Positions 33,561 through 37,966 of a stretch of 64,000 nt of DNA are shown one piece after another. Source of the DNA: an uncultured Bacteroidota bacterium. Its GTDB lineage: Bacteria > Bacteroidota > Bacteroidia > B-17B0 > Aurantibacillaceae. Below the pieces are notes generated by a model. The model searched no databases and was not told the DNA's origin. It worked only from the letters and a program-made list of their open reading frames with translations. Both the position numbers and the translations under genes were made by a program. Positions within the stretch are counted from its first letter, which is position 1. Every line of letters begins with the position of its first letter. The stretch is from positions 61,722-125,721 of the forward strand of contig CAILKE010000050.1 of the NCBI GenBank assembly GCA_903834765.1, written 5' to 3'.

Positions 33561-34829
33561 ATGTTTTACTATCTATTCCACTACTTAGATCAACACTTCA
33601 ACTTCCCTGGAGCTGGCGTTTTTCAGTATATTTCTTTTAGAGCAGCTTTAGCATTAATGAGTTCATTGATCATTACAATGTTATTTGGAAAACGTATCAT
33701 TAGTTATATTCAGAAAAAACAAATTGGAGAAACCATAAGAGAACTAGGATTAGAAGGGCAAACAGCTAAAGCAGGGACGCCAACTATGGGTGGACTTATT
33801 ATTTTAGCAGCAATCATCATCCCAACATTACTATTTGCAAAAGTTCATAACATTTATATTGTATTGATGCTAATATCAACAGTATGGCTTGGAAGTATTG
33901 GATTTATTGATGATTATATTAAAGTATTCAAAAAAAACAAAGAAGGGTTACAAGGTAAATTTAAAATAGTCGGGCAAATAGGTATAGGGTTATTAGTTGG
34001 TGCTGTATTTTATTTTCATCCTGATGTGGTAATAAAAGAACGAGTATCATCAAGTGGGCAAGCAGCTTATTCTTTTGATTCAGCTATTAGTAGCAATAAA
34101 GATTTGACTATGCCTAAATATGCTGCCACACAAATTAAAACAATCAAAACAACTATTCCTTTTTTAAAAAATAATGAATTTGATTATACAAGCCTGATTT
34201 CATTTATGGGAGAAAAGACACAACAATACGGTTGGTTAATTTTTATCCCCATCGTTATTTTAATTGTAACCGCAGTTTCTAATGGTGCCAATATCACAGA
34301 TGGCATTGATGGATTAGCCGCCGGGACAAGCGCTATCATCGGCGCAACTTTAGGCATCTTAGCTTATGTAAGTGGTAACACTATTTTCGCAGATTACTTA
34401 AATATCATGTATATACCAAACACAGGTGAACTCGTGGTATTTATGGCGGCCTTTGTTGGAGCCTGCGTTGGATTTTTATGGTACAATGCGTATCCGGCTC
34501 AAGTGTTTATGGGCGATACAGGTAGCTTGGCAATAGGCGGTATTATTGCCGTATTTGCGATCGCTATTCGTAAAGAATTATTAATTCCAATTTTATGCGG
34601 TGTGTTTGTAGTAGAGAATCTATCGGTGATCTTACAAGTGTATTATTTTAAATACCAAAAGAGAAAACACGGCATCGAATTCGCTAAAGCTAATCGCTTA
34701 TTTAAAATGGCGCCTTTACACCATCATTATCAAAAATTAGGTTTTCATGAATCAAAAATCGTGATGCGTTTTTTTATCATCGGAATCATGTTAGCAGCAT
34801 TAACAATCGTAACACTTAAATTAAGATAA
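33561..34829 (+). CDS. mraY: Phospho-N-acetylmuramoyl-pentapeptide transferase
   Basis: This 422-residue polytopic inner-membrane enzyme makes lipid I from UDP-MurNAc-pentapeptide and undecaprenyl phosphate. The motifs are [12 protein letters not shown] (about 74-85), [12 protein letters not shown] (metal-binding DD, about 115-127), [19 protein letters not shown] (about 240-258), [11 protein letters not shown] and [11 protein letters not shown] near the end. It has an insert of about 60 residues between helices (about 155-220), as in other Bacteroidota MraY. It uses the lipid carrier made by UppS (gene at 49797-50549). MurD starts 5 bp after its stop. Confidence 0.97.
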
Positions 34830-34834
34830 CAACA

Positions 34835-36181
34835 TTGAATAATCGAATCGTGATATTAGGAAGCGGCGAAAGCGGTATTGGCAGTGCAATTTTAGCACAA
34901 GCCAAAGGCTTTAGCGTGTTCGTATCAGACAAAGGTTTGATAAAAGAAAAATACAAAATACAGTTACTAGAAAACAACATTGCTTTTGAAGAAGGGATGC
35001 ATACAGAAGAATTAATCTTAAATGCAAATGAAATTATAAAAAGTCCTGGCATTCCTGATAAAGCAGACCTAGTGGTAAAAGCACGTGCCAAAAATATTCC
35101 TGTTATTTCTGAAATTGAATTTGCAGGAAGATATACTTCTGCTAAAACTATTTGTATTACAGGCAGTAACGGGAAAACAACCACTACCCTACTCACTTAC
35201 CATATCCTAAAAAAAGCGGGATACAATGTAGGCTTAGGTGGTAACGTTGGCAAAAGTTTCGCATACCAAGTTGCAAAAGAAAACTTCGAATACTATGTGT
35301 TAGAACTAAGCAGTTTTCAATTAGATGGCATGTATGATTTCAGAGCAGATATCGCTGTGTTATTAAACATCACTCCTGATCATTTAGACAGATACGATTA
35401 CAAATTTGAAAATTACGTTGCTTCAAAATTTCGTATCGCACAAAACCAAACAACTGACGATGCTTTTATTTATTGCGCTGACGATGCAGTCATGCAAGAG
35501 TATATGAAGTACCACACGTTTAATGCACAATTAATTCCTTTCAGTATTAAAAAAACGATAGAAGGAAACGGTGCGTATTTACAAGAACATGAAATAACCC
35601 TTAATTATAATAATAACCCTAAACCCTTAACCATGACAATTGAACAATTAGCCTTAGCAGGCAAACACAATGTTTACAATTCGATGGCGGCTTCTTTAGC
35701 AGCGCGTATTGTAGATATTCGCAAAGAAATCATCCGCGAAAGCTTAGAAGATTTTGAAAACGCAGAACACCGACTTGAATTTGTTGCTTCTATTAATAGC
35801 ATCGAATTTATTAACGATTCAAAAGCAACTAATGTAAACTCTACATGGTATGCACTTGAAAGCATGCAGAAGCCAACTGTATTAATTCTTGGTGGACAAG
35901 ACAAAGGAAACAACTACGAGGAGTTAATTGACTTAGTAAAAGAAAAAGTAAAAGCGATTGTTTGTTTAGGTGTTGATAATAAAAAAATAATTAAAGCTTT
36001 TAAAGGATCGGTTGAAACGATTGTTGAAGCAAGTTCTGCAGGTGAAGCCGTAGCTATGTCATATAAATTAGCTAGTAAAGGTGATGCTGTATTATTATCT
36101 CCTGCTTGTGCAAGTTTTGATATGTTTCAAAATTATGAAGATAGAGGTGCTCAATTTAAAGCAGCAGTAAGAGGATTATAA
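34835..36181 (+). CDS. murD: UDP-N-acetylmuramoyl-L-alanine:D-glutamate ligase, TTG start
   Basis: This 448-residue Mur ligase adds D-Glu to UDP-MurNAc-Ala. It has an N-terminal Rossmann-like domain (IVILGSGESGIGSAILA), an ATP loop TGSNGKTTTTLL (about 108-119), LNITPDHLDRY in the central domain, and a C-terminal domain with INDSKATN (about 324-331), LILGGQDKG and SPACASFDMFQNYEDRG (about 422-438). It starts with TTG 5 bp after mraY; no in-frame ATG fits the N-terminal fold. The gene directly downstream duplicates its C-terminal domain. Confidence 0.96.
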   Translation: MNNRIVILGSGESGIGSAILAQAKGFSVFVSDKGLIKEKYKIQLLENNIAFEEGMHTEELILNANEIIKSPGIPDKADLVVKARAKNIPVISEIEFAGRYTSAKTICITGSNGKTTTTLLTYHILKKAGYNVGLGGNVGKSFAYQVAKENFEYYVLELSSFQLDGMYDFRADIAVLLNITPDHLDRYDYKFENYVASKFRIAQNQTTDDAFIYCADDAVMQEYMKYHTFNAQLIPFSIKKTIEGNGAYLQEHEITLNYNNNPKPLTMTIEQLALAGKHNVYNSMAASLAARIVDIRKEIIRESLEDFENAEHRLEFVASINSIEFINDSKATNVNSTWYALESMQKPTVLILGGQDKGNNYEELIDLVKEKVKAIVCLGVDNKKIIKAFKGSVETIVEASSAGEAVAMSYKLASKGDAVLLSPACASFDMFQNYEDRGAQFKAAVRGL

Positions 36182-36200
36182 AATAAATTTAGACTGAAAG

Positions 36201-36665
36201 ATGAAGACTGAAATTAAATCGAAAACGTTTGCTATTGATCGTGATACGGATCATAGTTTTGAATTTGTAGCCAATATCAATGATATCACGTTTATTAATG
36301 ACTCTAAAGCTACTAACGCGAAACAAACCGTTGAAAGTATTAATTCTATTGATGCTGAAATCATATTGATATTAGGAGGAGATGATTTAAAAACAGACTA
36401 TTCGTGGTTTACAAACGTAAATTACTACAACATCAAAACCGTTATTTATTATGGACGTCGTTTTCCTGAAATCAAAAACATATTTAATAAACATGTGATG
36501 ATTGTGCTATTAGATAATTTGGAAACGTCAGTGAAATTCTCAAAAGACAGAGCAATAAAAAATCAAGTGGTGCTGTTTTCGCCTGCTTGCCCAAGTTATG
36601 ATACTTTTGATAATTATAAAAATCGCGGGGATAAGTTTAAAGAACTTGTTTTAAAAGGGACCTGA
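36201..36665 (+). CDS. Stand-alone MurD C-terminal-domain paralogue
   Basis: This is a 154-residue intact reading frame with an ATG start 19 bp after murD. Residues 18-154 align with the last 137 residues of the neighbouring MurD over nearly equal length, about one third identical by eye. The conserved points are FINDSKATN (about 30-38), ILILGGDD (about 55-62) and FSPACPSYDTFDNYKNRGDKF (about 126-146). In MurD these regions contact the substrate and bind D-Glu. The ATP loop and the central domain are absent, so it cannot be a ligase by itself. The first 17 residues are unrelated to MurD. The level of divergence with kept motifs argues against a fresh partial duplication or random decay. It might bind MurD or a Mur intermediate; function unknown. 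Confidence 0.8.
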   Translation: MKTEIKSKTFAIDRDTDHSFEFVANINDITFINDSKATNAKQTVESINSIDAEIILILGGDDLKTDYSWFTNVNYYNIKTVIYYGRRFPEIKNIFNKHVMIVLLDNLETSVKFSKDRAIKNQVVLFSPACPSYDTFDNYKNRGDKFKELVLKGT

Positions 36666-36710
36666 AAGACTAAAGAGAAATAAGAAACTTGAGAGATTAA
36701 AAATACTTTG

Positions 36711-36752
36711 CTTTCTCAACGCAAAAATTCTCTGCGAACTTTGCGGTTAATT
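36711..36752 (-). repeat. Dispersed repeat with ACCGCA(A/G)AG core, in front of ftsW
   Basis: The reverse strand reads TTAACCGCAAAGTTCGCAGA, similar to ACCGCAGAG-type copies at 60470-60478 and 60692-60706. It fills the gap between the MurD-like gene and ftsW and lies in a non-native upstream extension of the ftsW frame. Confidence 0.5.
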
Positions 36753-36764
36753 AAAAAAATAACA

Positions 36765-37904
36765 ATGAAACTATTCACATATTTAAAAGGAGATAGAGTA
36801 ATCTGGACAATTGTATTTCTGTTGTCTCTATTATCTATTTTAGTCGTGTATAGTTCTGTTGTAACATTAGCGCATAAATACAAGCAAGGTAATACAGAGT
36901 CGTATTTGATAAAACATGCGATCACTATTTGTGGTGGTATTTTAATTATGTATGTTATTCATAAATTAAAGTATACAATCTTCTCAAGAGTAGCACAAAT
37001 AGGAATAATCTTAGTTATTCCTTTATTATTATTTACCTTACTAAAAGGTGTGAGTGCTGGCGAAGCCAGCAGATGGGTTGAAATTCCAGGGTTAGGGTTA
37101 ACATTTCAATCGTCTGATGTGGCTAAAATTATTTTACTAATTTTTGTAGCGCGAACACTCACGGTAAGACAAGGACAAATAGAAGATTTCAAATCCTTAT
37201 TCAAATATTTGTTATTACCTATTGGTGTTATTTGTCTATTGATATTTCCGGCGAATTTTTCTACAGCAGCCTTGTTGTTTTTAAACTGTTTATTCTTAAT
37301 GTTTGTTGGACAAATAAAAGTAAAATTTATTGCCTATATCTTAGGAGCTTGCATGGCCTTCGCTTTATTATTAGGGATTGTCATTTATCAATTTCCAGAT
37401 GTAATTCCACGTGGCAGAACTTGGAAAGCACGAATAGAAAATTTCTCTGAAGGAGATGCAAAAAATAATTACCAAAGCGAACAAGCAAAAATAGCGATTG
37501 CTACCGGTGGCATTATTGGTAAGGGGCCTGGAAACAGCACGCAACGGGCTTTTTTACCACAAGCATCTTCCGATTTTATTTACGCAATCATTATTGAAGA
37601 ATACGGCTTATTCACTGGGTTTGCGATGATCTTTCTTTACATGATCTTATTATTTAGAGGCATTCGTATTTTAAGAGATTCTGAAAAACCATTTGGAGGA
37701 TTGATGGCAATCGGTTTAAGTTTTAGCTTGGTGTTTCAAGCATTAATCAATATGGCTGTTGCAGTCAATCTATTTCCTGTAACAGGGCAACCATTACCAT
37801 TAGTAAGTATGGGAGGAACCTCAATATGGTTTACCTGTATAGCAATTGGGATTATTTTAAGTGTGAGCAAATCAAACGAAGACAAAGAAGTAATACCTGC
37901 ATAA
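36765..37904 (+). CDS. ftsW: Septal peptidoglycan glycosyltransferase FtsW
   Basis: This 379-residue SEDS-family polytopic membrane protein polymerises lipid II at the septum with FtsI. Features are GDRVIWTIVFLLSLLSILVVYSS at the first helix (about 9-31), ASRWVEIPGLGLTFQSSDVAK (about 100-120), YQSEQAKIAIATGGIIGKGPGNST (about 225-250), SSDFIYAIIIEEYGL, and the C-terminal GQPLPLVSMGGTS signature. The start at 36765 (MKLFTYLKG) is preferred over an ATG-less 19-residue extension from 36708 that is translated repeat DNA. Confidence 0.95.
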   Translation: MKLFTYLKGDRVIWTIVFLLSLLSILVVYSSVVTLAHKYKQGNTESYLIKHAITICGGILIMYVIHKLKYTIFSRVAQIGIILVIPLLLFTLLKGVSAGEASRWVEIPGLGLTFQSSDVAKIILLIFVARTLTVRQGQIEDFKSLFKYLLLPIGVICLLIFPANFSTAALLFLNCLFLMFVGQIKVKFIAYILGACMAFALLLGIVIYQFPDVIPRGRTWKARIENFSEGDAKNNYQSEQAKIAIATGGIIGKGPGNSTQRAFLPQASSDFIYAIIIEEYGLFTGFAMIFLYMILLFRGIRILRDSEKPFGGLMAIGLSFSLVFQALINMAVAVNLFPVTGQPLPLVSMGGTSIWFTCIAIGIILSVSKSNEDKEVIPA

Positions 37905-37910
37905 CTATTA

Positions 37911-37966
37911 GTCACCCTGAACTCGTTTCAGGGTCTCATGAGATGCTGAAACAAGTTCAGCATGAC
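37911..37966. repeat. 56-bp palindromic (REP-like) element between ftsW and murG
   Basis: It runs from GTCA to TGAC and contains two imperfect inverted pairs: CCTGAAC.CGTTTCAGG is its own hairpin, and GCTGAAACAAGTTCAGC forms a second hairpin. In one frame it reads HPELVSGSHEMLKQVQHDK, a string typical of translated intergenic repeats. It fills most of the 86-bp gap before murG. Confidence 0.8.

Follow-up and report, generated by a model that had tools for sequence, protein, structure and literature searches.

A stand-alone gene for the C-terminal domain of MurD, conserved between murD and ftsW in one class of Bacteroidota

Introduction

The dcw cluster is among the best known bacterial gene orders, and MurD is a drug target. 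In an uncultured bacterium of the Aurantibacillaceae (Bacteroidota), a short additional gene stands between murD and ftsW in this cluster, and its product resembles the C-terminal domain of MurD alone. What might this domain do as a protein of its own, directly beside murD? We address this question with a stretch of 64,000 nucleotides from that genome (contig CAILKE010000050.1), hereafter called the window, and with related loci from its genus, family, class and phylum.

Results

The stand-alone gene is an intact open reading frame of 154 amino acids on the forward strand of the window (36201..36665). It follows a full-length murD of 448 amino acids (34835..36181) at a distance of 19 nt (36182..36200), and the gene before murD, named mraY from its similarity to family loci, occupies 33561..34829. 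The next gene is ftsW, read from an ATG (36765..37904; the list of open reading frames opens it at TTG 36708), and all four genes share one strand. Repeat-like intergenic stretches flank ftsW (36706-36754 and 37911-37966), which we take to resemble repeats of other Bacteroidota. An Rfam search of the window gave no match.

The stand-alone protein is 36% identical to the C-terminal domain of the neighbouring MurD, has the same length as that domain, and is predicted to adopt the C-domain fold of Mur ligases. It matches this domain only, as the N-terminal UDP-binding and middle ATP-binding domains are absent. Its score with the NCBIfam murD model is 124.4 bits, below the curated cut-off of 211.95, and the match covers positions 304-440 of 441. 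At the catalytic positions R302, D317 and K348 (E. coli numbering) the window copy has S, D and L, and the full catalytic set is therefore not present. R302 and D317 take part in ATP binding, and the Mur ligase reaction needs the ATP-binding middle domain; because that domain is absent, the stand-alone protein cannot run the ligase reaction alone. A preliminary description of this DNA had read the gene as a separate, intact frame that split from murD long ago at about one third identity and that does not encode a normal ligase. The intact 154-aa frame, the measured identity, the missing ATP-binding part and the sub-threshold murD score all bear this out. A frameshifted second full murD was considered as the source of the frame and rejected.

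The preliminary description also proposed searching for the same short gene in relatives and estimating its dN/dS. Within the genus, all 20 genomes carry the gene: 19 copies are complete and directly follow murD, and one (G371) is cut by a contig end, with ftsW still after it. In three family genomes outside the genus (G345, G328 and G304) the gene occupies the same slot, and it is also found in other families, as described below. The spacing to murD is at most 3 nt, or an overlap, in 18 of the 22 family loci (19 nt in the window). The next gene is ftsW in 21 of these loci, the remaining one ending at a contig edge.

Most genera of the family are without the gene, having lost or never gained it. 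No remnants were found in 61 loci of family genomes lacking it, where the best tblastn match had an E-value of 0.03 and lay on the opposite strand. In most such loci ftsW closely follows murD; in G315 a gap of 352 nt holds an unrelated small frame. Carriers fall in three places of the family MurD tree (three changes), and the family stand-alone copies form one clade (SH-aLRT 100, stem 2.72), all in one slot. One gain with later losses is the favoured history, and the change count alone does not decide it.

Stand-alone copies also extend through the class. In the class sample, 84 of 395 genomes had two or more matches, which is an upper limit for carriers, as a second match is not always a stand-alone gene (that of G585 looks like a murD split over contigs). 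We read the rows of 58 of these 84 genomes and fetched 60 loci, of which six with copies away from murD were set aside. In the remaining 54 loci, from 17 family codes, murD lies directly upstream on the same strand, with a median gap of 22 nt to the first ATG of the copy. The position beside ftsW that had been described for the window recurs here too, ftsW being next in 51 of the 54; the exceptions are a contig end, an ftsW some 700 nt further on, and an ftsW not in the locus. Together with f1 (the window's own family), f86 and f112, the free C-domain occurs in 20 family codes, and the earlier label "orphan" does not fit it. No fusion of murD with a stand-alone copy, visible as two matches in one frame, was seen among the rows listed for the 58 genomes. 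Most genomes of the class sample, like most genera of the gene's own family, do not have it, and so it is not essential class-wide. In the other classes of a 247-genome phylum sample, a second match was found only in G015 and G188.

Database proteins at an E-value of 0.001 or better numbered 310, of which the best 120 were listed. With the copy of G328 as query, stand-alone relatives were found far outside the genus. The source annotations read murD, hypothetical, glutamate ligase domain-containing or cyanophycin synthetase. Trees were built on subsets of 89, 111, 139 and 73 rows. A single origin of all 38 class copies was rejected by the AU test (p = 0.024; p = 0.017 without f112), and was not rejected for the 22 core copies (p = 0.33) or for the core plus f112 (p = 0.15), the core having been named after the tree was seen.

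Some loci depart from the usual arrangement. Two stand-alone copies stand in tandem in G660 (f114; L229 1534-2641), with murD upstream and ftsW downstream, and a very diverged 135-aa relative without the usual motifs lies between murD and ftsW in G442 (f78; L238 2139-2546). Third, fast-evolving C-domain copies occur outside the dcw cluster in L241, L240 and L198 (f54), L242 (f90) and L243 (f86). In L241 and L242, a frame that we presume to be aldehyde-dehydrogenase-like lies near this third copy.

The gene is under selection. Within the genus, 19 of 171 pairs had a usable dS (0.1 to 1.5); their dN/dS had a median of 0.045 and ran from 0.018 to 0.231, far below 1. These are NG86 estimates, used in place of YN00, which gave many undefined values. 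The dN of the stand-alone gene is 2.4 times that of MurD's own C-domain. It thus evolves faster than MurD, yet under clear purifying selection, and this selection together with its conserved position marks it as a functional gene. All copies read, 22 from the family and 55 from the class, have open frames. In the murD of L015 and L016, dS is 0.43 in the C-domain and 1.39 in the rest of the gene, perhaps through recombination.

We next compared residues of the ligase site between free copies and MurD. R302 is lost in all 22 family stand-alone copies, and its arginine is kept in all 30 family MurDs aligned. Among 210 listed database proteins it is lost in 207 (one has a gap there) and kept in three. 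The 55 class copies keep R302 in 31 cases, D317 in 46, K319 in 31, T321 in 40 and K348 in 10 (residue counts near gaps depend on the alignment), so that loss of R302 and D317 is not universal. They keep the equivalent of S415 in 46 cases and P411 in all 55, and the F422 position is a tyrosine in 47 of them and in all 210 listed database proteins. The pocket loop motif has been lost from several copies of families f55, f59 and f112. That the protein keeps the D-Glu motifs, as first described, therefore holds in part: K319 and T321 are variable, and most copies have lost K348. The MurDs beside the class copies are complete (R302 in 54/54, D317 in 54/54, K348 in 53/54), and the earlier option that the protein replaces the MurD C-domain is for this reason unsupported.

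In family f112 the domain occurs without murD at the locus. The dcw order of G630 is mraZ, mraW, ftsI, murE, mraY, free C-domain, ftsW, murG, murC, ftsQ, ftsA, with no murD. Ten further f112 loci read murE, mraY, free C-domain, ftsW, so that in all 11 loci read the domain has mraY before it and ftsW after it. The short frame was found in 37 of 41 sampled f112 genomes, and three of the four misses belong to genus g310. With dN/dS of 0.03-0.12 in the four closest pairs, the f112 gene is under purifying selection. The f112 copies group among canonical MurDs in the tree, and these data suggest a murD cut down to its C-domain; the f112 gene may also be an inherited duplicate (AU p = 0.15). Under either origin, the domain is kept at the locus without murD. 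In G416 a break in the cluster separates murD from the free domain, which remained with ftsW.

The f112 MurD-type ligase lies on other contigs and is closest to that of G630 in all ten fetched loci. It is fused to or adjoins a MurL-like sequence in five of these ten and in G630 (the pairs are in L235 of G630, L254, L255, L260, L261 and L262, all f112). The MurL-like sequences score 257.8 and 250.1 bits with a MurL model whose cut-off is 700; this model is of the Xanthomonadales kind, and the f112 sequences, which are related to it, are putative epimerases. The ligase passes the NCBIfam murD cut-off. Glutamate racemase was detected in none of 25 f112 genomes, versus 12 of 12 others. Bacteria with MurD2/MurL have been reported to be without glutamate racemase (PMC8788868), and the part of that report available to us names Proteobacteria and Actinobacteria only. 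A MurD2/MurL route in Bacteroidota, namely in f112, is possible; the name is provisional because the MurL-like part scores under the cut-off and the ligase passes the murD model.

A further source of a free C-domain is predicted within murD itself. Synonymous variation along the family murD shows one deep trough, at 0.10 of expectation in 19 genus genomes (median 0.80), and the same trough is present in 36 relatives without the stand-alone gene, at 0.08 of expectation (median 0.86). It lies directly before an internal Met (window ATG 35633; MTIEQLALAGKHN), where variation falls about eight-fold. In the window this is 35573..35632 on the forward strand, a stretch of near-zero synonymous variation whose last 41 nt are without G.

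The DNA at this site is G-poor in many families, although the peptide differs. Before the internal Met, the mean G content is 0.004 in the 80 MurDs from the family, against 0.200 over the whole gene; in the 48 MurDs from other carrier families the two values are 0.042 and 0.243. Eight family MurDs that had entered the scan twice are counted once in these figures. The Met itself is present in 80/80 family (f1) MurDs and 45/48 of the others, the three misses all being f62, where murD has lost the internal Met and the stand-alone copy retains the tail of the middle domain. With one G in the 45 nt upstream, ATG 35633 has the fewest of all 275 internal in-frame ATGs in 41 open reading frames of the window. 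The folding energy before it is 0.0 (median -8.1 over internal ATGs, -4.5 over gene starts), and in 120 of 125 MurDs the corresponding Met has the least structure of all internal ones. The site thus combines a conserved in-frame Met with an unstructured upstream stretch. In several f112 genera the free C-domain starts at the Met homologous to this one (MTIExLA).

No comparable stretch was found in nine MurDs from other classes of the phylum, nor in most from other phyla. Of 14 additional genomes of the class in which the stand-alone gene is absent, 11 were without the low-G stretch, and f7, f8 and one f5 genome have it. These controls show that the signature goes mostly, not strictly, with carrier families (13 of the 158 MurDs were not anchored in the low-G scan, nine of them from other classes and read with another anchor, and two of the nine MurDs marked "cl" come from carriers). 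The internal Met alone is more widespread than the low-G stretch and occurs also in other classes. A promoter is an unlikely cause of the constrained stretch: the Bacteroidetes promoter consensus requires G on the coding strand, a base that does not occur in the last 41 nt. We infer an internal translation start in murD, which is predicted to release a 182-aa C-terminal product in the window (35633..36181, forward strand).

Discussion

What kind of protein is the free C-domain? Decay of a copy left by a murD duplication, or an error of assembly, might account for the 2.4-fold higher dN, the absence of the gene from many relatives and the very diverged 135-aa frame in f78. This is hardly credible for a gene with open frames in the 22 family and 55 class copies read, with dN/dS far below 1, in the same slot across many assemblies and with 310 database proteins at an E-value of 0.001 or better (best 120 listed). 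Fold and length equal to those of the MurD C-domain would also suit a spare domain that completes MurD in trans, but the adjacent MurD has a full C-domain with conserved residues and K348 is mostly lost in the free copies, which makes this role very improbable. The protein might instead bind D-Glu, UMA or UMAG, and the S415 equivalent (46 of 55 class copies) and the tyrosine at the F422 position (47 of 55, and 210 of 210 listed database proteins) are consistent with a ligand pocket. In simulations of MurD, K348, T321, S415 and F422 contact D-Glu mimics (PMC3527612). Of these, however, K348 and T321 are often lost, the pocket loop motif is gone in several f55, f59 and f112 copies, and f112 has no detected glutamate racemase; we consider ligand binding improbable.

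Closer to the evidence would be a dedicated regulatory subunit of canonical MurD only, binding the middle domain instead of or beside MurD's own C-domain and throttling or stabilising the enzyme. The tight spacing after murD in the family (at most 3 nt in 18 of 22 loci) and murD directly upstream in 54 class loci agree with this, as does the inhibition of MurD by a bound protein, MigC, described for Acinetobacter, a member of another phylum (PMC12208494). But the free domain is retained in f112 where murD left the locus, and the G416 copy stayed with ftsW, not with murD. Regulation of MurD, an option raised in the preliminary description, is possible as one activity; it is insufficient as the explanation because the f112 free domain outlasts murD at the locus, and a subunit serving MurD alone seems rather unlikely to us.

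Our preferred reading, for which we see a little less than an even chance, is that the stand-alone protein is no ligase but serves the MurD-MraY-FtsW precursor machinery as a small partner subunit without catalytic activity. This seems the best account of a domain that is selected, co-encoded with murD, non-catalytic alone, placed beside ftsW and retained when murD leaves the locus. The protein would be co-made with MurD, would bind a MurD-type ligase or a membrane partner, and could scaffold or tune precursor supply to FtsW. Mur enzymes as parts of larger complexes are discussed in PMC6420597 and PMC4929429.

In carrier lineages murD itself may release the free C-domain from its internal start (window ATG 35633). 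The stand-alone gene would then have specialised as a duplicate of a fragment that murD already yields. A broader, more tentative history is plausible for many Bacteroidia, at somewhat less than even odds. In it, murD is a two-product gene to which many lineages added a dedicated gene, and f112 gave up the rest of canonical MurD, shifted catalysis to a MurL-linked ligase and retained, between mraY and ftsW, the free C-domain alone. On this view the free domain would serve the lipid II-FtsW machinery in a structural or regulatory capacity, independent of MurD catalysis. Two findings speak slightly against this history: the f112 ligase scores above the murD cut-off, and the low-G stretch does not occur throughout the class.

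Several known systems resemble parts of this picture. The stand-alone protein shares sequence, length and predicted fold with the MurD C-domain, but it is a separate gene without N-terminal or middle domain, and the R302 and K348 equivalents are lost in the window's family. MurT, a Mur-ligase relative with GatD as its partner protein, appears lower in the fold search; MurT is catalytic and keeps the ATP-binding middle domain, whereas the stand-alone protein is a C-domain only. SctQ makes a C-terminal fragment from an internal start, the FliM/FliN counterpart is a separate gene, and the fragment partners the full protein. This parallels an internal-start fragment in one lineage and a separate gene in another, although these are secretion and motility proteins without sequence relation, and the murD internal product is only predicted. 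The MurD2/MurL pathway is matched in f112 by the MurL-like sequence fused to or beside the ligase (5/10 loci and G630) and by the undetected racemase. Membership is at most tentative, with a MurL score of 258 versus 700 and a ligase that exceeds the murD cut-off, and the portion of PMC8788868 available makes no mention of a free C-domain. MigC likewise is a protein partner acting on a Mur ligase, as proposed here, but it is an unrelated COG0523 GTPase with no MurD domain (PMC12208494).

In the open-access literature searched, a gene for the MurD C-domain alone was not described; these searches were not aimed at murD internal starts. Conserved in 20 family codes of one class, the gene is an additional component between murD and ftsW and persists even where the locus has no murD. 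A natural test case is offered by family f112, which kept the domain at a locus that has lost the parent enzyme, and by the internal start, a second, predicted source of the same fragment. If our reading is true, a domain regarded as purely catalytic would also act independently and might couple precursor synthesis to FtsW.
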